From assembly GCF_018613675.1 (NCBI RefSeq), contig NZ_JAGGPQ010000015.1, positions 1 through 64,000 on the forward strand: a stretch of DNA of 64,000 bases, in the 5' to 3' direction. This document shows, piece after piece, positions 17,016 to 38,919 of this stretch (position 1 is its first letter; every line of letters begins with the position of its first letter). The notes under the pieces were generated by a model. The model saw nothing but the letters and a program-made list of their open reading frames with translations. It did not search any database and was not told where the DNA came from. Source of the DNA: Arthrobacter sp. ISL-85. Its GTDB lineage: Bacteria; Actinomycetota; Actinomycetes; Actinomycetales; Micrococcaceae. The translations under genes were made by a program, and so were the position numbers.

Positions 17016-20000
17016 TTAGCGGGACGGCGCCAGGGATCCCCGGGGCTGTCCGGCGGAGGCCGAAAGCTCCAGCCGGGCATCACCGGGGTGGATGTCAGCG
17101 GGGTTGTGCGTCACCAGCACCACGGTGCGGTCCCGTAGTCCCGCGCGCAGGTCCGCCAGCATGGCGGCCGCTGATTCCGCATCCAGGTGGGCGGTGGGCT
17201 CATCCAGCAGGATGACTTCCGCACCGGTCAACAGGGTCCGCGCCACGGCCAGGCGCTGGCGCTCGCCGCCGCTCAGGAAGGCGCCGCCCGGACCGATCCG
17301 GGTGTCCAGCCCCGACGGCAGCCGGCCCACCAGCGCGGAAAGTCCGACGGCGGCCAGGACGGCCTCCAGCTCGTCGTCCATAACCGGCGGTGCGCCGTTT
17401 GCTGCCGGCCGTCCCAGCAACAGGTTTCCCCTGATGGTGGAATCGAACAGGTGCGCCTCCTGCGGGCACCACGCAGCCCGGCCAGTAACCTTCACCTGGC
17501 CGGCCGCGGGCGGCAGGAAGCCCAGCAGCACGGAGAGCAGCGTGGATTTCCCGGAACCGGACGGTCCGGTGACCGCCAGCCAGCGCCCGGGAGCTGCCAC
17601 GGCATCCACGCCCGAGAAGACCGCGGAGCCGCCCGGCCAGGCCGCGGCCAGGTCCACGAGCTCAACGCCTGGCGCGCCGCCGGCCCTACGCGGAACGGGC
17701 TGCAGGCCATCGCCGGCTTCGCTGGCCCCCTCAAGGGCCCCCGACTCCCCCACCCGGCGCATGACGGAACGCAGCGCAGGGAACTGGCGCACCGCCGTCG
17801 TCATCGCTGCGTAGGGTTCCACCAGCGCGAGCAGCAGGAGGACCACCACGGCCGCCGTTTCCGGGGCTACCTGGGTTGTGAGAACCCCGGGGCCCGCCAG
17901 CCACGCGGCCGCCAATGCAGCCGTACCGCAAGCCGCGGTAGCCACTGCATGGCCAAGCCCATCCGCCCAGGCGGAGCGCTGCGACGCACGGGTGGCCTCC
18001 CGGTCCTCCGCCAGCAGTGCATCAAGCACGCGGGGCGCAACGCCGTTTGCGTGCAGTTCGGCCCGGGCATCGAGGGCAGCGGCTACCCGACGCAGGACGC
18101 CGGAGCGCAGGGACTGCTCGGCGGCGGCGGATTTGCGGTCACCGAACAAGGCAGCGGCAGGAGCCAGCATTAGGCCGCCGATGGCCGCGCCGGCCACGGC
18201 TGGAAGGGCGGCAGGCACCAGGATGCCGGTAGCGGCCACGGCCAGGACGGACACGGCAACGGCCGTGACGGGCGGCAGGACTACGCGGGGCAGGAGGTCG
18301 CGGATGGTGTCGACGTCGTCGATTACCGTGCCCAGCACGTTGCCGCCCTGCAGGAGCCGGCGCAGTGACAGCGCCCTGCGGCTCAGTGACTCCCAGAGCC
18401 GGCCGCGGAGGCGGGTGAGTGCGGCGAACACGGCGTCGTGCAGCAGCAGCCGCTCCCAGTAGCGGAACACCCCCCGGCCAATGCCGAAGAACCGGACGCC
18501 GACGATGGCGGTCAGGAGGTACAGGATGGGCGGCTGCTCGCTGGCGCGGATAATGAGCCAGCCGGAAAGGCCGGAAAGCGCGACGGCGAAGACGGCCGCC
18601 AGGGTGCCGACGAAGGCCGCGGCCGCGAACTTGCCCCGGACCGGTGCCAGGAGTGCGGCCAGGAGCCGGCAGGCTCCGGGGGTGGCCTGCCCGGGCTTGC
18701 CCACGGGGAGGTCACCTGCTTCGTCCGTGAAAGCGCTGCCGACGTCGGCGTCCCCCTCTGCTGCACGGCTTCCTGTTGAGCCGGCGGGCAGCAACGCGGG
18801 ACGGCCGCGCAGGTCGGCGGGGGCGCCGCCGTCCTGTTTCGCTTCAGCGGTGACCCGGGCTGCCGGCGAAACCGGAACCAGCAGGTCCGCGAGCTGCCGG
18901 GTGCGCTGGTTGTGGGCCACCAGGATCACGGTGACCTGGCCGCGGAGCCGGCGGATGGCGTCCTCGACGATGACCGCGGACGCGTCGTCCAGGTGTGCGG
19001 TGGGCTCGTCGAGCAGCAGGAGGGTGGCACCGGCGTCGATTTTGGCAAGGCCGCGGGCCAGTGCCACGCGGCGCAGCTCGCCCGGGCTCAGCTCCGCCTG
19101 GTGCTTTGCTGCCAGGTGCCCGGCTCCGGCGCGTTCCAGGCAGCGGCGGGCAGCCGCTTCAGCTGTGAACCTGTCGGGACCGTGGCTGGGGTCCGGTGAG
19201 AGGTACAGCAGCACCTCGTCCAGGACGGTCCCGGCCACCATGACGGGGTGCTGCGGCACCCAGGCCACGGCGCTTCGGTCCAGGCCGCTGATGGATCCGG
19301 TAATGCTGGTCCCTGCGCCGCCCGTTCCGCCGCCGTGGCCGATGGTCCCCGCCAGGACGCCCAGCACGGTACTCTTGCCGGCGCCGCTGGGGCCATCCAG
19401 GGCGGTGATCCTGTCCTGCGGTGCGGTGAACGAAAGGGGTCCGACGGCGGCTCCGGACCGTCCGGCGTATGTCACGGAGAGTCCGGTGACCTCAAGCGGG
19501 GCGCCCGGCCTGCCGGCCTTGGCCGCGGGCAGGGGTGTTGCCTCGGGGGCTCCGGTCACGGCGGCTGTTTCGGCGAGCGCCACCCTGCCGTCGTCGCTGG
19601 CGTGGTGGGCGGTGCCCAGCTCCCGCAGCGGAAGGTAGCAGTCCGGGGCAAGGAGGAGCGCCAGCAGCCCGGCTTCCAGCGGCATGTCGCCGTGGACCAG
19701 CCGGACGCCGATGAAGACGGCCACCACGGCCACTGAAATGGTGGCGATCAGTTCCAGGGCCAGCGCCGACAGGAAAGCGGTCCGCAGGGCGCCCATGGTG
19801 CGGGAGCGGTACTCCTCGGAGATCTCCTCCAGGGCCTTGCGCTGGGCGGTGGCACGTCCCAGCCCCACCAGGACCGGCAGTCCCTTGGCGAGTTCCAGCA
19901 TGTGCGCCGACAGCCGTGCCAGCGAGGCCTGGGCCTGGCGAACGCTGTCCTCGGTGTACCGGCCAATCAATGCCATGAACACCGGGATCAGCGGCACCGT

Positions 20001-20474
20001 CAGCACGATGACCAGTGCGCTGACCCAGTCCGCGAAGAGGATCCGGGCCCCCAGCAGCAGCGGAACGGCGGCGCAGTTGACCAGCGCGGGAAGGAACTGG
20101 GTGTAGTAGCTGTCCAGGGCGTCCAGGCCGCGGGTCGCAAGGACCGCCAGGCCGCCGTCGCCCGGGCCGGCGCCGCGCACGCCGGTGCGCAGGGCCCGCT
20201 GCAGGAGCTCGGCCCGGAGCTCTTCCTTGACGCCCAGTGCCGCACGGCGCGCGGCGACTGCCTGTCCCCAGACCGTCAGGGAGCGGAGGACGACGCCGGC
20301 CAGGCCTGCCGCGATCTGCTGCGCCCAGGCAGGGTCCCCGGCAACGAGGCCGGCAAGGACGGAGGCCACCGCTTGGCCGATGAGGACCAGGGACAGGGCC
20401 TTGAGCGCAGCGAGCAGGCCCAGCCAGTAGATTGCGGACCGGGTTGCGGGGCCGGCGGGAAAGGTGGGCCGCAT
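17016..20474 (-). CDS. cydDC: fused CydD-CydC heterodimer-type ABC exporter
   Basis: CydDC exports thiols (glutathione or cysteine in E. coli) to the outside and is needed for cytochrome bd assembly. Normally two proteins of about 560-580 residues, here both halves are in one 1152-residue frame. The first half has a membrane domain and an ATPase domain with Walker A GPSGAGKST, signature SPGELRR and Walker B LLLLDEPTAH. A hydrophilic linker of about 60 residues follows. The second half has membrane helices and GPSGSGKST, LSGGERQRL and VILLDEPTAH. All catalytic motifs are intact in both halves. The ATG lies one base after the cydB stop, so it is the last gene of cydA-cydB-cydDC. Confidence 0.93.
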   Translation of the reverse strand: MRPTFPAGPATRSAIYWLGLLAALKALSLVLIGQAVASVLAGLVAGDPAWAQQIAAGLAGVVLRSLTVWGQAVAARRAALGVKEELRAELLQRALRTGVRGAGPGDGGLAVLATRGLDALDSYYTQFLPALVNCAAVPLLLGARILFADWVSALVIVLTVPLIPVFMALIGRYTEDSVRQAQASLARLSAHMLELAKGLPVLVGLGRATAQRKALEEISEEYRSRTMGALRTAFLSALALELIATISVAVVAVFIGVRLVHGDMPLEAGLLALLLAPDCYLPLRELGTAHHASDDGRVALAETAAVTGAPEATPLPAAKAGRPGAPLEVTGLSVTYAGRSGAAVGPLSFTAPQDRITALDGPSGAGKSTVLGVLAGTIGHGGGTGGAGTSITGSISGLDRSAVAWVPQHPVMVAGTVLDEVLLYLSPDPSHGPDRFTAEAAARRCLERAGAGHLAAKHQAELSPGELRRVALARGLAKIDAGATLLLLDEPTAHLDDASAVIVEDAIRRLRGQVTVILVAHNQRTRQLADLLVPVSPAARVTAEAKQDGGAPADLRGRPALLPAGSTGSRAAEGDADVGSAFTDEAGDLPVGKPGQATPGACRLLAALLAPVRGKFAAAAFVGTLAAVFAVALSGLSGWLIIRASEQPPILYLLTAIVGVRFFGIGRGVFRYWERLLLHDAVFAALTRLRGRLWESLSRRALSLRRLLQGGNVLGTVIDDVDTIRDLLPRVVLPPVTAVAVSVLAVAATGILVPAALPAVAGAAIGGLMLAPAAALFGDRKSAAAEQSLRSGVLRRVAAALDARAELHANGVAPRVLDALLAEDREATRASQRSAWADGLGHAVATAACGTAALAAAWLAGPGVLTTQVAPETAAVVVLLLLALVEPYAAMTTAVRQFPALRSVMRRVGESGALEGASEAGDGLQPVPRRAGGAPGVELVDLAAAWPGGSAVFSGVDAVAAPGRWLAVTGPSGSGKSTLLSVLLGFLPPAAGQVKVTGRAAWCPQEAHLFDSTIRGNLLLGRPAANGAPPVMDDELEAVLAAVGLSALVGRLPSGLDTRIGPGGAFLSGGERQRLAVARTLLTGAEVILLDEPTAHLDAESAAAMLADLRAGLRDRTVVLVTHNPADIHPGDARLELSASAGQPRGSLAPSR

Positions 20475-20475
20475 G

Positions 20476-21525
20476 TCAGCCCTTGGTGGTGAACGCCTTG
20501 GCGGCCACGGCCGGGAGGAAGCTGTGGGCTGCCGGGATATGGGCGGCGCTGACGCGGCGGCGGAACACCCAGTAGGTCCAGGCCTGGTAGGCGATCACCA
20601 GTGGAAGCCCAAACGCCGCCACGATGCTCATCAGCCCCAGGGTGTAGTCCGAGGAGGAGGCGTTGGAGATGGTGAGGTCAAAGGCCCTGTCCAGCGTGGA
20701 GGGAAGCACCACTGGGAACACGGCCCCGAAAATGGATGTCGTGCCCAGGACCAGGAAGGCACCCAGGGCCAGGAAGGCCCTGCCTTCGGAACCGCCCCGG
20801 GCCAGCAGCCAGGCAGTGACGGCGGCACCGACGGCCAGGATGACGGCGGCCCAGGTCCAGGGCTTGCCTTCCATGAACTGGATGGCGAGGGCCCACGAAG
20901 CGATCGGGAGGAGCAGGACCGGCAGGAGGCGCACGAACCACTGGCGTGCCCGGTGCCGGACTTCCCCGTCCGTCTTGAGGGCCAGGAAGGCCAGAGCGTG
21001 GAGCAGCGAGAAACCCACCACCGCGATCCCCCCGAGCAGGGCGTAGCCGCTGAACCAGGCCAGGGGGCCGCCTTCGCGGTCACCGTTGGCGTTCAGCGGG
21101 AGGCCGGTGGTGGTGAGGGCCAGGGCGGCACCTACGCCGAAGGCGGCGAAGAAGGAACCCAGGGCGATGGCCCAGTCCCACCGGTTCCGCCAGCTGTCGG
21201 TGTCCACCTTGCCGCGGTATTCGAACGCCACGGCGCGGAAGATCAGGGCCAGCAGGACCACCAGCAGGGGCAGGTAGAGCGCGGAGAACAAGGACGCGTA
21301 CCAGAGCGGGAAGGCAGCGAAGGTGGCGCCGCCGGCGGTCAGCAGCCACACCTCGTTGCCGTCCCAGACGGGTCCGATGGTGTTCAACAGGACGCGGCGC
21401 TCGGTGTTGTTGCGCGCGAAGAGCTTCATCAGCATCCCGACGCCGAGGTCGAAGCCCTCCAGGAAGAGGTAGCCGGTCCACAGCACCGCGATGGCGATGA
21501 ACCAAATGGTGGGAAGCAGTTCCAT
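20476..21525 (-). CDS. cydB: cytochrome bd ubiquinol/menaquinol oxidase subunit II
   Basis: CydB is the second membrane subunit of cytochrome bd. The 349-residue product starts MELLPTIWFIAIAVLWTGYLFLEGFDLGVGM in overlapping short motifs (FLEGFDLGVG is the family hallmark). It contains GPVWDGNEVWLL and eight or nine predicted membrane helices. It lies 39 bases downstream of cydA and one base before cydDC, so all three should be on one mRNA controlled from the cydA promoter. The oxidase has high oxygen affinity and supports growth at low oxygen or when the aa3 branch is inhibited. Confidence 0.97.
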   Translation of the reverse strand: MELLPTIWFIAIAVLWTGYLFLEGFDLGVGMLMKLFARNNTERRVLLNTIGPVWDGNEVWLLTAGGATFAAFPLWYASLFSALYLPLLVVLLALIFRAVAFEYRGKVDTDSWRNRWDWAIALGSFFAAFGVGAALALTTTGLPLNANGDREGGPLAWFSGYALLGGIAVVGFSLLHALAFLALKTDGEVRHRARQWFVRLLPVLLLPIASWALAIQFMEGKPWTWAAVILAVGAAVTAWLLARGGSEGRAFLALGAFLVLGTTSIFGAVFPVVLPSTLDRAFDLTISNASSSDYTLGLMSIVAAFGLPLVIAYQAWTYWVFRRRVSAAHIPAAHSFLPAVAAKAFTTKG

Positions 21526-21564: not shown

Positions 21565-23169
21565 TTAGTAGGCGAAGGCCAGGACGTCGTCGGCCGGTTT
21601 AGTGTCCCCGTTGCCGCCGGCGCCGGGCGTTTCATCCTCGTTCTCGTCCGCCGGTGCGTGGCCCAGCTCCGGCATGGCGGACACCACGCCGCCGCGGATG
21701 TACGTGACCAGCAGTTTCACTTCCACCACCAGGAGGACGGCGTATACGGCTGTCAGGGCAACCAGCGAGGTGATCAACTCCCCTGCGGAAACACCCGGCG
21801 ACACGGCGGCAGCGGTGAACATGAACACCTGGTCAATGCCGCTGGGATCAGGGTTGGGGGCCACCACGAACGGCTGGCGGCCCATCTCGGTAAAGATCCA
21901 GCCGGCGGCGTTGGCCCCGAAGGGGGCCAGGATGCCGAAGACTGCCAGGCGCATGAGCCACCTTGCCTCCGGTACGGTCCCCTTGCGGGTGAGCCAGAGG
22001 GCCACGAGTGCGGCGAGGGCGGCGAGGCCGCCGAAGCCGATCATCATCCGGAAGCCCCAGTAGGTGACCTCCATGACGGGCACGTACTGGATTTCCTGGC
22101 CGGCGCGCTCGCCGTAGATGGGGTTGTCCGGCAGGTGGGTTCCGTAGTTGGCCTTGTACTCGGGCAGCAGGCTGTTGACGCCCTGGACCTCGGTGGTGAA
22201 GTCCCCCTTGGCCAGGAAGGACAGGATGCCCGGAACTTCGATCACGGCCACTACGTCGTCGCAGTTCTTGGATCCCACGTTGCCGATGCTCAGGACCGAG
22301 AAGCCCGTGCCGTCGTGGCAGGCCGCCTCGGCCGCGGCCATCTTCATGGGCTGCTGCTGGAACATCAGCTTGCCCTGCAGGTCGCCGGTGACGGCGGTGC
22401 CGGCGAAGGAGATCATGGCCACCACGGCGCCGATGCGCAGGGACCGGATCCACACCTTGTGGTCGGCACGGTCGCGGCCGGGGATCCGGGCGTCTTCCCC
22501 GGGGATGACCCGGCCGTCGGCACCTACTGTGTCAACGCCGTCGTGCCGCCTCCGCCACAGGTGGTACCAGGCGATGCCCAGGAGGAAGCCGCCGGCCACT
22601 GCGAGGGCGCCGAACAGGGTGTGCGGGACGGCCACGAGGGCCGTGTTGTTGGTGAAGACGGCCCAGGCGTCGGTCATGACGGGCCGGCCGTTGATCATTT
22701 CGACCCCCACCGGGTGTTGCATCCAGCTGTTGGCCACGATGATGAAGTAGGCCGAAAGCGCCGATCCAATGACGGCCACCCAGAGGCAGGCGAGGTGGAT
22801 GGCGGGCTTGAGCTGCTTCCAGCCGAAGATCCACAGGCCCAGGAAGGTGGACTCGACAAAGAAAGCGAGGAGGGCCTCGAGGGCCAGCGGCGCACCGAAG
22901 ACATCACCCACGAAGCGGCTGTACTCGCTCCAGGCCATACCGAACTGGAACTCCTGCACGATGCCGGTGGCGACGCCCATGATGAAGTTGATGAGGAAGA
23001 GCTTTCCCCAGAACTTTGTCATGCGCAGGTACTCGGGCTTGCCGGTGCGGTACCAGGCCGTCTGGATAACGGCCACTACGAGGCCCAGGCCGATGGTCAG
23101 GGGCACCATCATGAAGTGGTACACCGTGGTGATACCAAATTGCCAGCGTGCGATTTCCAAGGCGTCCAT
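21565..23169 (-). CDS. cydA: cytochrome bd quinol oxidase subunit I
   Basis: CydA carries the haems (b558, b595, d) and the quinol site. The 534-residue product begins MDALEIARWQFGITTVYHFMM, with His18 matching the conserved haem ligand (E. coli His19). The quinol-site loop is the short type, with GWIFTEMGRQPFVV. An in-frame start seven codons upstream exists but ATG at 23169 is the family start. Two perfect TTCTAC-N5-GTAGAA palindromes flank a TATAGT -10 hexamer within 60 bases upstream, so repression by the adjacent BlaI is likely. First gene of cydA-cydB-cydDC. Confidence 0.97.
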   Translation of the reverse strand: MDALEIARWQFGITTVYHFMMVPLTIGLGLVVAVIQTAWYRTGKPEYLRMTKFWGKLFLINFIMGVATGIVQEFQFGMAWSEYSRFVGDVFGAPLALEALLAFFVESTFLGLWIFGWKQLKPAIHLACLWVAVIGSALSAYFIIVANSWMQHPVGVEMINGRPVMTDAWAVFTNNTALVAVPHTLFGALAVAGGFLLGIAWYHLWRRRHDGVDTVGADGRVIPGEDARIPGRDRADHKVWIRSLRIGAVVAMISFAGTAVTGDLQGKLMFQQQPMKMAAAEAACHDGTGFSVLSIGNVGSKNCDDVVAVIEVPGILSFLAKGDFTTEVQGVNSLLPEYKANYGTHLPDNPIYGERAGQEIQYVPVMEVTYWGFRMMIGFGGLAALAALVALWLTRKGTVPEARWLMRLAVFGILAPFGANAAGWIFTEMGRQPFVVAPNPDPSGIDQVFMFTAAAVSPGVSAGELITSLVALTAVYAVLLVVEVKLLVTYIRGGVVSAMPELGHAPADENEDETPGAGGNGDTKPADDVLAFAY

Positions 23170-23198: not shown

Positions 23199-23215
23199 TT
23201 CTACGCTTCGTAGAA
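23199..23215. promoter_or_regulatory. BlaI-type operator O1 (cydA proximal)
   Basis: TTCTACGCTTCGTAGAA is a perfect inverted repeat with 7-bp arms and a 3-bp centre. It lies 30 bases upstream of the cydA ATG, overlapping the predicted transcription start. It shares the TTCTAC-N5-GTAGAA pattern with O2, O3 and, with one arm mismatch, O4 at 38510. Confidence 0.75.
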
Positions 23216-23220
23216 CTATA
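23215..23220 (-). promoter_or_regulatory. predicted -10 of the cydABDC promoter
   Basis: On the minus strand TATAGT lies between operators O1 and O2. A bound repressor at either site would block RNA polymerase. The -35 would fall inside or next to O2 and is not a good match to TTGACA. Confidence 0.5.
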
Positions 23221-23222
23221 AC

Positions 23223-23239
23223 TTCTACACAGTGTAGAA
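23223..23239. promoter_or_regulatory. BlaI-type operator O2 (cydA distal)
   Basis: TTCTACACAGTGTAGAA is a perfect inverted repeat with 8-bp arms around a single central base. Its centre is 24 bp from the centre of O1, slightly more than two helical turns. It covers the expected -35 region of cydA. Confidence 0.75.
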
Positions 23240-23310
23240 CATGGTCGGCGGGGGACGAAAACCGATCACCCTCCCCCAGGATCGCGCACTGGGCCGCGGG
23301 GCGCCACATG

Positions 23311-23327
23311 TTCTACCCCATGTAGAA
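23311..23327. promoter_or_regulatory. BlaI-type operator O3 (blaI side)
   Basis: TTCTACCCCATGTAGAA has perfect 6-bp arms and a 5-bp centre. It lies about 100 bases upstream of the blaI start and about 20 bases before a TAAATT hexamer that may be the blaI -10, so it fits autorepression. Confidence 0.7.
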
Positions 23328-23429
23328 GCTTCGGCGGTTTCGGGGTAAATTTAGTTCTGTAGTTGAACGACAGCACGAGGTCACCGGGCGCGCCAGGGCG
23401 TACGGTGCGGGGAAATAAAGGAATGTGAA

Positions 23430-23813
23430 ATGGCTAGTCTTGGTGAACTGGAACGGTCAGTGATGGACCTGCTCTGGGCGGGCCAGGAAGCGGCTACGGC
23501 CAATACCCTGAGGGACCAGCTGGCCCGAACGTCGGCGGCACGGGGCGGACCGGGCCACGAAGGCAAGGAACTGGCCGTCACTACGGTGCTCACCGTCCTC
23601 TCCCGCCTGGAGAAGAAAGGGCTGGTGGAACGCGAACGCGGCACCCGCCCGCACCGCTACCAGGCAGTGTCCAGCCGTGCAGACCACACCGCCGAACTCA
23701 TGCATGAGGTCCTTGGTTCAGCCCCGGACCGCGAGGCCGTCCTGGCCCGCTTCATTGGGTCTGTCTCCGAAGGTGAAGCCGAGACGCTGCGCAAACTGCT
23801 GGGCCACCTCTAA
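23430..23813 (+). CDS. blaI: BlaI/MecI/CopY family repressor
   Basis: The 127-residue product is a BlaI-type winged-helix repressor. The N-terminal DNA-binding domain runs from LGELERSVMDLLWAGQEA through VTTVLTVLSRLEKKGLVERERG (recognition helix and wing). A C-terminal dimerisation helix region (residues about 85-127) contains the site normally cut by the partner protease. AAAGGAA precedes the ATG. It is followed after six bases by an M56 metalloprotease gene, the classical BlaI-BlaR pairing. No beta-lactamase gene is nearby. Instead it is divergent from cydABDC, with three matching palindromes between them. Confidence 0.93.
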   Translation: MASLGELERSVMDLLWAGQEAATANTLRDQLARTSAARGGPGHEGKELAVTTVLTVLSRLEKKGLVERERGTRPHRYQAVSSRADHTAELMHEVLGSAPDREAVLARFIGSVSEGEAETLRKLLGHL

Positions 23814-23819
23814 CACACC

Positions 23820-24812
23820 ATGTTCTGGGCCTCGTACCTGCTGGCGGTCCTTGCGATCATCCTTGCCTGGCCCGTGCCAATACTTCTGTCTCGGGCGCAG
23901 TGGCCGGCCAGGTCGCCCTTCACGGCAATGCTGTTGTGGCAGGCAATCGCGCTTGCAGGTGGACTGTCCATGATCGGCGCCATGCTGGTCTACGGCCTGG
24001 AACCTGTCGGCGACAACCTCATCGCGGGACTGCGCGCCCTTGCCGGGATGGTGCTTTTCAATGCGCCCACCACCGCGCTGGGGTTCTGGCATATCTTCGC
24101 GCTGTCCACTGCCGCCCTGCTCACGGCCCACCTGGTCTTCACGCTGCTGCTGACGTACTACAAGATCCAGCGGCAGCGGCGCCGGCACCGCGAACTGCTC
24201 GCGCTCCTGGCTTCGCCTTCCGGCCAGAACGCCGGAACGCTCGTCATCAGCCACGACTCCCCTGTCGCCTACTGCCTTCCGGGCGGCGCCCGCTCCGTGA
24301 CCGTCCTGTCGGACGGCCTGATGGCGGCGCTCGAACCGGCCGAACTGCGTGCCGTCCTCATCCATGAGAACGCCCACCTGAGCCAGCGGCACCACCTGCT
24401 GCTTTGGGCCTTCGCAGCCTGGCGGCAGGCCCTTCCCTGGCTGCCCACCACGCGTTTGGCGCAGGAGTCGGTCAACTCGCTGATCGAGATGCTGGCCGAC
24501 GACGTCGCCCTCCGGACCGAGAGCAAAGCCACCCTCATCAAGGCCATCGCCATCGTGGCAAGCGGTTCAGCGGGGGGTGCCGGCGCCGGTGATGTCCGGC
24601 CTTCCTCGCCTACCCTGGCCCTCTCCGGACTTGAAGCGGCATCAGGCGGACCCGGCTCGGACGCCGTCCGTACCGCAGCTTCGCGGGTCAGCCGCCTCCT
24701 GACTCCCCAGCCCCCGCTTCCTGCCGCCGTCCGCAGTGCGGTCATGGCCGGCTGCGTCCTGCTGCTTGCACTGCCCACCGCGCTGCTGGTGGTTCCCGGG
24801 CTCCTCGGCTGA
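23820..24812 (+). CDS. M56 family membrane metallopeptidase (BlaR1/MecR1-like, no penicillin-binding sensor)
   Basis: This 330-residue membrane protein has three N-terminal hydrophobic segments (about residues 2-24, 35-58, 92-114) and a gluzincin motif HENAH at residues 182-186, with a likely third zinc ligand at Glu223 (LIEMLADD). A last helix covers residues about 305-328. It is about half the length of staphylococcal BlaR1 and lacks the extracellular penicillin-binding domain, so it should not sense beta-lactams the classical way. By analogy it would cleave BlaI to relieve repression. The trigger is unknown; a respiratory or membrane signal is inferred from the divergent cyd operon. Confidence 0.9.
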   Translation: MFWASYLLAVLAIILAWPVPILLSRAQWPARSPFTAMLLWQAIALAGGLSMIGAMLVYGLEPVGDNLIAGLRALAGMVLFNAPTTALGFWHIFALSTAALLTAHLVFTLLLTYYKIQRQRRRHRELLALLASPSGQNAGTLVISHDSPVAYCLPGGARSVTVLSDGLMAALEPAELRAVLIHENAHLSQRHHLLLWAFAAWRQALPWLPTTRLAQESVNSLIEMLADDVALRTESKATLIKAIAIVASGSAGGAGAGDVRPSSPTLALSGLEAASGGPGSDAVRTAASRVSRLLTPQPPLPAAVRSAVMAGCVLLLALPTALLVVPGLLG

Positions 24813-38509: not shown

Positions 38510-38526
38510 TGCTACGCAGCGTAGAA
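38510..38526. promoter_or_regulatory. BlaI-type operator O4
   Basis: TGCTACGCAGCGTAGAA matches the cydA operator O1 (TTCTACGCTTCGTAGAA) at 14 of 17 positions. It keeps the CTACG/CGTAG palindrome and the 3-bp centre, with one mismatch in the arms. It overlaps the expected -35 to -10 spacer of the following membrane-protein gene, whose -10 (TAAGCT) begins ten bases later. Confidence 0.6.
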
Positions 38527-38547: not shown

Positions 38548-38919
38548 ATGACTATTCTCCTCAACATTTTGGTGTTCCTGCACGTCGTAGGCGCCGCCAT
38601 GATCGTGGGCTACTGGATCGCCACCATGCGGACCCCTACGGTGCACCCGCGCCAGCGTGACGGCGCCTTCCTGCAGCTCCTCACCGGCATCGCCATGATG
38701 GGCATCCTGCCCGTCCTGCACAACCAGGATCCTGCCCATTTCGGCGACCTGAACTACGCCAAGCTGGGCATCAAGTTCGTCATCGCCGTTGTGGTTGCAG
38801 TCCTGGCCGTTATCGGAACTCGCAAGGTCAAGAACGGGGAGCCCGTGTCCACCGGCGTGGCCCATGGCGTCGGCGGCCTGGCCTTGATCAACATCGCCAT
38901 CGCCACCATCTGGCAGTAA
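38548..38919 (+). CDS. small four-helix membrane protein, putative BlaI-regulon member
   Basis: The 123-residue product has four predicted membrane helices (about residues 2-24, 45-58, 70-90, 105-122). The first helix contains FLHVVGAAMIVGYWIA, with a His and small residues, as in haem- or quinone-linked membrane proteins such as DUF2269 or CopD-like proteins. No named family is certain. There is no ribosome-binding site; the start follows TAAGCT by six bases. A palindrome nearly identical to the cydA operators covers its promoter, suggesting co-regulation with cytochrome bd. A respiratory-chain role is an inference from that only. Confidence 0.8.
   Translation: MTILLNILVFLHVVGAAMIVGYWIATMRTPTVHPRQRDGAFLQLLTGIAMMGILPVLHNQDPAHFGDLNYAKLGIKFVIAVVVAVLAVIGTRKVKNGEPVSTGVAHGVGGLALINIAIATIWQ

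Follow-up and report, generated by a model that had tools for sequence, protein, structure and literature searches.

Palindromic operators at the cydA-blaI locus of Arthrobacter sp. ISL-85 point to a respiratory BlaI regulon

Described BlaI systems and the locus in Arthrobacter

The staphylococcal repressors BlaI and MecI bind dyad operators with a TAC/GTA core. They are PF03965 proteins that share one operon with a membrane metalloprotease, BlaR1 or MecR1, and the locus described here has the same arrangement, but we found no beta-lactam sensor domain and no beta-lactamase or PBP2a target in our case, and the arms of the operators are five bases apart. CopY, a copper repressor of the same superfamily, is also related in that our BlaI gives a weak match to its profile (TIGR02698, 25 bits against a cut-off of 122). 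In contrast to CopY, the BlaI here has no cysteines, and hence no CopY metal motif, and it has a protease as a partner.

In Mycobacterium tuberculosis, BlaI (of the pair BlaI-BlaR, Rv1846c-Rv1845c) is already known to bind the promoters of cytochrome bd and ATP synthase, according to PMC5473688, which cites Sala 2009 for this. A sequence-only reading of our locus had mentioned broader, respiration-linked BlaI regulons in mycobacteria, and rightly so. The same paper states that M. tuberculosis BlaI controls blaC, that amoxicillin-clavulanate raises blaI-blaR and cydAB, and that mycobacterial BlaR has no sensor domain. Overexpression of BlaI lowers Rv1303-atp transcription, with promoter binding seen by EMSA, and knockdown of BlaI in M. 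smegmatis leaves the ATP level unchanged, as PMC12565901 reports; the latter counts against the mechanism we propose below. In M. abscessus, clofazimine raises the ATP synthase and cyd genes together (PMC8765290), a response that a regulon of this kind would also give.

Our system is like that of M. tuberculosis (as described in PMC5473688, PMC12565901, PMC7924339 and PMC8265638) in its sensor-less BlaR and in having operators at both cytochrome bd and ATP synthase, the former an exact triple and the latter with one mismatch. It differs in that blaI-blaR is divergent from cydABDC and in that the outer operator bases are TT/AA, where loci of the family we call f19, two genomes of which we take to be mycobacteria, have TA/TA. 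A further difference is that hemQ-hemH, hmp, resA/ccdA-like genes, sucCD and others carry sites here and no beta-lactamase was found at one. BlaI_0696 of Clostridium thermocellum is a more distant case: its DAP-seq motif consists of GTCTAT repeats five nucleotides apart, and the EMSA difference is called modest (PMC8457756). It shares with our system the CTAT inverted repeats with N5 spacing, two dyads per target promoter and autoregulation, but its regulon comprises three operons, and we found no respiratory targets described for it.

We found no description of a BlaI-cyd system in this genus in the openly accessible text of the literature searched. As far as that literature reaches, the cyd-linked regulon in Arthrobacter relatives is new, with its heme, cytochrome c, hmp and suc branches, and so are the graded operators, the linkage of blaI and cyd across families, and the concordance of recognition helix and operator.

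The window, by which we mean the whole 64-kb stretch of DNA that was analysed, has the genes for cytochrome bd on its minus strand: cydA (subunit I, 21565..23169), cydB (subunit II, 20476..21525) and a cydDC fusion for the thiol reductant ABC exporter (17016..20474). On the plus strand lies blaI (23430..23813), which encodes 127 amino acids with no cysteine and scores 74.5 bits against PF03965 (cut-off 22.6); its best sequence match is PDB 2g9w. It is followed by a gene for a BlaR-like membrane metalloprotease of 330 amino acids (23820..24812, plus strand) with four predicted transmembrane segments and HExxH at residue 182. This protein scores 38.3 bits against PF01435 (M48, cut-off 20.3) and 22 bits against PF05569 (M56), which is below the cut-off of 31. 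Pfam gave only these M48/M56 matches, and no beta-lactam sensor or penicillin-binding domain was matched.

The sequence-only reading had seen three copies of TTCTAC-N5-GTAGAA between the divergent cydA and blaI, and on re-reading the sequence we found all three to be exact and at the positions it gave. The operators, to which we assign no strand, are O1 (23199..23215, TTCTACGCTTCGTAGAA), which stands before cydA at 29 bp from its ATG; O2 (23223..23239, TTCTACACAGTGTAGAA), at an O1-O2 distance of 24 bp; and O3 (23311..23327, TTCTACCCCATGTAGAA), 102 bp upstream of the blaI ATG. When up to three mismatches are allowed, the whole window has 19 matches against a mean of 4.6 in shuffled sequence, and 19 or more were reached in 0 of 100 shuffles.

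It had also been proposed that O1 and O2 flank the -10 of cydA. This is plausible, as a candidate TATAGT lies between O2 and O1 (23215..23220, minus strand) and the consensus of aligned relatives has TAAAGT at this position, but a sigma-70 consensus promoter scan found no promoter. For blaI, a candidate -10 with the sequence TAAATT (23346..23351, plus strand) is largely conserved across an alignment of 75 loci, and the -35 that would belong to it at 17-bp spacing would fall where O3 overlaps.

Conservation of the sites and the genes behind them

For conservation we used the best 80 of 165 relatives, which are named loci of the Arthrobacter/Pseudarthrobacter/Paenarthrobacter type. In all of these 80, cydA and blaI are divergent and cydA, cydB, blaI and blaR are present. 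Three exact palindromes occur in 79 of the 80 and two in the remaining one, so that every locus has at least two between cydA and blaI, and the gene blaI has a dyad operator (O3) ahead of itself. Each of the 239 palindromes in these 80 loci lies between cydA and blaI, with exact arms and variable bases in the 5-bp spacer, and the O1-O2 spacing is 23–26 bp in 79/79 triples. When the intergenic region was aligned for 75 of the 80 loci (those with three sites and full length), the palindromes were the main conserved blocks, together with the TAAATT before blaI.

A genome-wide search, which the sequence-only reading had suggested, found eight exact copies of TTCTAC-N5-GTAGAA in the 4.53-Mb genome, three of them at cyd-blaI, and all eight directly upstream of genes. 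The other five are 10–81 bp ahead of predicted starts. One is before hemQ, with the ferrochelatase gene hemH next; one is before the flavohaemoglobin-like hmp, beside an Rrf2-family gene; one is at a cluster of histidine-phosphatase, resA-like and ccdA-like genes that is divergent from yceI; and the last two precede a PNPOx-like gene and a gene for a 134-aa membrane protein of unknown kind. Across 25 same-genus genomes, with our own among them, exact copies number 188 and those of a reversed control 33, and the same search of 14 genomes from other families of the order gave none (though loci of family f17, described below, have them). When one mismatch is tolerated, our own genome has 11 matches against 13 for the reversed control, which is no excess, and the case therefore rests on exact matches, on position and on conservation.

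Three one-mismatch sites in this genome have a gene behind them. The first is 76 bp ahead of a 150-aa frame that has no Pfam match and sits in the position of atpI, before atpB (confirmed by Pfam). The second is 197 bp ahead of sucC. The third (TGCTACGCAGCGTAGAA, 38510..38526, no strand assigned) has its next open reading frame 21 bp downstream, which encodes a 123-aa membrane protein with no Pfam match (38548..38919, plus strand). At a locus from another family (L379), a protein 25% identical to this one is likewise found behind an operator with TA/TA outer bases (TA-type). The palindromes are 10–102 bp from the predicted start codons, except for the 197 bp at sucC, and this closeness fits repression. 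No beta-lactamase is among the identified genes at the 11 sites (eight exact and three one-mismatch) of our own genome.

These promoters keep their sites in relatives. Eight same-genus genomes have 35 exact sites apart from the cyd triple, and every one of them belongs to one of these five promoters (hemQ 8, histidine-phosphatase/yceI 8, membrane protein 8, hmp 7, PNPOx 4). Among 31 genomes searched, the atp site reads TTCTAT-N5-GTAGAA in 30/30 loci and the suc site TTCTAC-N5-ATAGAA in 30/30, our own included in both counts. The off-consensus half-site, TTCTAT, is thus always the same at atp and suc, and its retention suggests that these operators were selected for lower affinity.

Two of the target genes deserve a separate mention. 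The 134-aa protein (L006 1545-1949) has two transmembrane segments and no Pfam match, its gene has an exact operator in our own genome and in 8/8 relatives, as does its homologue in G049 and G046, two genomes of other genera; we consider it a candidate for a new respiratory protein. The hmp gene (L007 1526-2034) has a BlaI-type operator despite an Rrf2-family (NsrR-like) gene directly upstream, and the response to NO may be shared by two regulators there.

In G049 and G046, 21 of 25 sites were read, the remaining four being at blaI/cyd. Both genomes have an exact site at COX2/ctaC, and exact sites in the pair are also found at SURF1, a UbiA/ctaB-like gene, sdhC, hemA and isocitrate lyase, as well as at a CopD/CtaG gene in G049. 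Shared in kind with our genome are the sites at hemQ, the resA-like gene, the PNPOx gene, the unknown membrane protein and the atp operon. Six of the 21 sites have no clear respiratory gene (L335, L337, which is within a predicted ORF, L342, L344, L348 and L351). The sites at COX2/ctaC, SURF1, the UbiA/ctaB-like gene and sdhC imply that both respiratory branches are served. The earlier proposal of a switch between branches is thus too narrow, and the regulon reaches beyond a choice of bd or aa3 oxidase, as operators are also on ATP synthase and sucCD and on the genes for heme synthesis, flavohaemoglobin and the assembly of cytochrome c. A further genome, G139, has eight sites.

Linkage of blaI-blaR to cydA occurs in several other actinobacterial families. 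In f17, 9/9 loci have cydA beside blaI and exact sites. In f33, a cydA-like neighbour is present in 16/17 loci (two were checked, and Pfam confirmed both), and TTCTAC-N5-GTAGGA lies near blaI in 16/17, with exact palindromes as well in four. One f6 locus has cydA and no site like TTCTAC-N5-GTAGGA. In f35, blaI is 113–179 bp from cydA in 19/20 genomes with a BlaI match, where G336 was left out, coordinates were joined by hand, and 19 were checked. We also looked at 20 further loci from nine families. Eight of them contain cydA, and in 15 a TWCTAC-N5-GTAGWA with no more than one mismatch is found up to 400 bp from blaI; an operator-like site before blaI was absent in the other five (L219, L225, L226, L229 and L231). 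In a mismatch scan with fixed spacers over the same 20 loci (at most two mismatches, overlaps counted), N5 gave 31 matches before blaI against one for N4 and one for N6. One of these loci, L226 from an f42 genome, has blaI-blaR near ccdA/tlpA-like genes for cytochrome c assembly and not near cydA.

Two f19 genomes, which we take to be mycobacteria from the similarity of their BlaI to 2g9w, have TAC(T/G)AC-N5-GT(A/C)GTA at three places: 31 bp ahead of the cydA start, some 230 bp ahead of an ATP synthase I gene, and some 60 bp ahead of blaI, which is not beside cydA. In both (L369 and L376) a TA-type site is also found about 20 bp ahead of a small membrane protein (DUF3817 by Pfam in L369), followed by a frame that is thioredoxin-like by eye. 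Counted over four other-family genomes, the TA-type pattern has no clear excess over its reversed control (7/5, 7/2, 3/4 and 4/1).

BlaI as the probable binder and the rival explanations

That BlaI controls cydA and itself through these dyads was the central claim of the sequence-only reading, and it is strongly supported by co-occurrence, conserved spacing and concordance with the recognition helix, all of which are comparisons. Among 120 family genomes, at least two exact sites are present in 100/104 that have a BlaI match of at least 80 bits and in 0/16 below this (12 without a match and four at 37–42 bits); these are raw counts that ignore kinship. The bit-score cut was chosen after the data were seen, and with a cut at 100 bits the same genomes give 99/101 against 1/19, again with kinship ignored. 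A palindrome ahead of cydA (at most two mismatches, within 700 bp) was found in 0/7 genomes that have cydA without BlaI, and in 4/4 BlaI-bearing genomes from two of those same genera, once with a mismatch. This count left out G070, which has a match of only 24 residues, and G043, G051, G105 and G120, which have no cydA. In the best 30 family loci with blaI, the exact palindrome is present in 30/30 and cydA adjoins in 27/30.

The presumed recognition helix of BlaI is in the TTVLTVLSRLE region from residue 51. The outer base of the operator goes with this helix: TT/AA pairs with RLE in 11 loci and TA/TA with RL(A/G/S) in 13, in a comparison that excluded L215. L230, with an RLH helix and a mixed site, fits neither class.

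A different transcription factor might bind TTCTAC-N5-GTAGAA and blaI be a mere neighbour. The link of BlaI to the palindromes is comparative, and genus g25 gives this idea some ground, since its cydA site is kept in 4/4 genomes and its only BlaI is divergent (37–42 bits) and located elsewhere, in all four with a BlaR-like neighbour. The BlaI of g25 has an RLE helix, and its sites are TT/AA. Against this idea, the outer base of the operator tracks the BlaI helix, in the family the sites come and go with BlaI, and at loci where cydA is not a neighbour (L090, L092 and L105) blaI still has its operator. The distant BlaI of C. thermocellum has a CTAT motif with the same N5 spacing (PMC8457756). 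In our own genome a search with the BlaI sequence found no other relatives, and the sole other PF03965 match (23.9 bits, cut-off 22.6, profile positions 6–58) is in a frame (G000 C4:103755-103904, L315) that by eye resembles a regulator of the MarR type. We consider this explanation very improbable. A role as RNA hairpins or terminators, which the inverted arms and the short loop between them might suggest, is hardly credible: the arm letters are constant in 79/80 triples from the best 80 of 165 relatives and the loops vary, the repeats are directly upstream of genes, and the one terminator-like match starts just after O3 and coincides with none of the palindromes.

The remaining two explanations accept BlaI and concern its signal. 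In a classical beta-lactam response, BlaR would sense cell-wall damage and cyd would be a side target, as the family name and the BlaI-BlaR pairing suggest, along with the control of blaC and the response to amoxicillin-clavulanate in M. tuberculosis (PMC5473688). We find this improbable, as BlaR has no matched beta-lactam-binding domain and no beta-lactamase is among the identified genes beside the sites. The other is that BlaR answers heme or copper supply, the oxidase cofactors, and not electron flow, which we regard as unlikely though worth keeping in mind. Its appeal lies in the number of heme makers, carriers and users among the targets (hemQ-hemH, hemA, cyd, hmp, cytochrome c assembly, sdhC, UbiA/ctaB-like, SURF1), in the CopD/CtaG protein that is also a target in G049, and in two reports from the literature: TnSeq found M. 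tuberculosis blaR to be required with heme or haemoglobin as iron source (PMC7058343), and blaI is named within the IdeR regulon (PMC7924339). However, ATP synthase and sucCD are free of heme and have their operators in 30/30 loci each, and the lack of cysteine makes CopY-like metal sensing by BlaI itself unlikely.

Proposed mechanism and its meaning

Taken as a whole, we believe the best explanation is that BlaI represses a regulon for respiratory capacity and that the BlaR metalloprotease releases it, to which we give a probability of roughly 0.8. BlaI, a repressor of the winged-helix type, would bind TTCTAC-N5-GTAGAA, presumably as a dimer. With O1 and O2 over the start region of cydA it would repress cydABDC, and through O3 it would repress blaI-blaR. 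It would likewise repress hemQ-hemH, hmp, the resA/ccdA-like cytochrome c cluster with yceI, the PNPOx-like gene and two small membrane proteins, and also ATP synthase and sucCD by way of operators that are one base off. The sites, the regulon, their conservation and the link to BlaI come from comparison of sequences, and from these we infer direct binding, repression, cleavage by BlaR and the signal.

The likely sensor is the BlaR metalloprotease, which has no extracellular beta-lactam domain. Release by proteolysis, as the sequence-only reading had proposed, is suggested by the adjacent M56/M48-type peptidase. Since BlaI has no cysteines, and so no thiol for metal or redox sensing, the cue most likely reaches the system through BlaR. 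When electron flow or the supply of heme or oxidase fails, BlaR would inactivate BlaI and respiratory capacity would go up.

A broader reading, to which we give somewhat less than an even chance, is that BlaI-BlaR arose early in actinobacteria as a pair of sensor and repressor for respiratory capacity. A cue from within the membrane or the cytoplasm, either failing electron flow or failing supply of oxidase cofactors, would cause BlaR to inactivate BlaI. The one-base-off operators would grade the affinity, cytochrome bd and ATP synthase would rise together with heme and the assembly of cytochrome c, and control of beta-lactamase would have come later in some lineages.

In these soil bacteria, a repressor known for penicillin resistance appears to govern instead the genes for the bd oxidase and ATP synthase and those for making heme and assembling cytochromes. 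The labels 'BlaI' and 'penicillinase repressor' in Actinobacteria may thus misguide resistance surveys. How actinobacteria, mycobacteria among them, increase cytochrome bd and ATP synthase once their main respiratory chain is blocked matters for drug tolerance. These harmless soil bacteria have a conserved regulon defined by sequence, in which the operators, the repressor and a candidate sensor can be named, and this turns it into a testable question.
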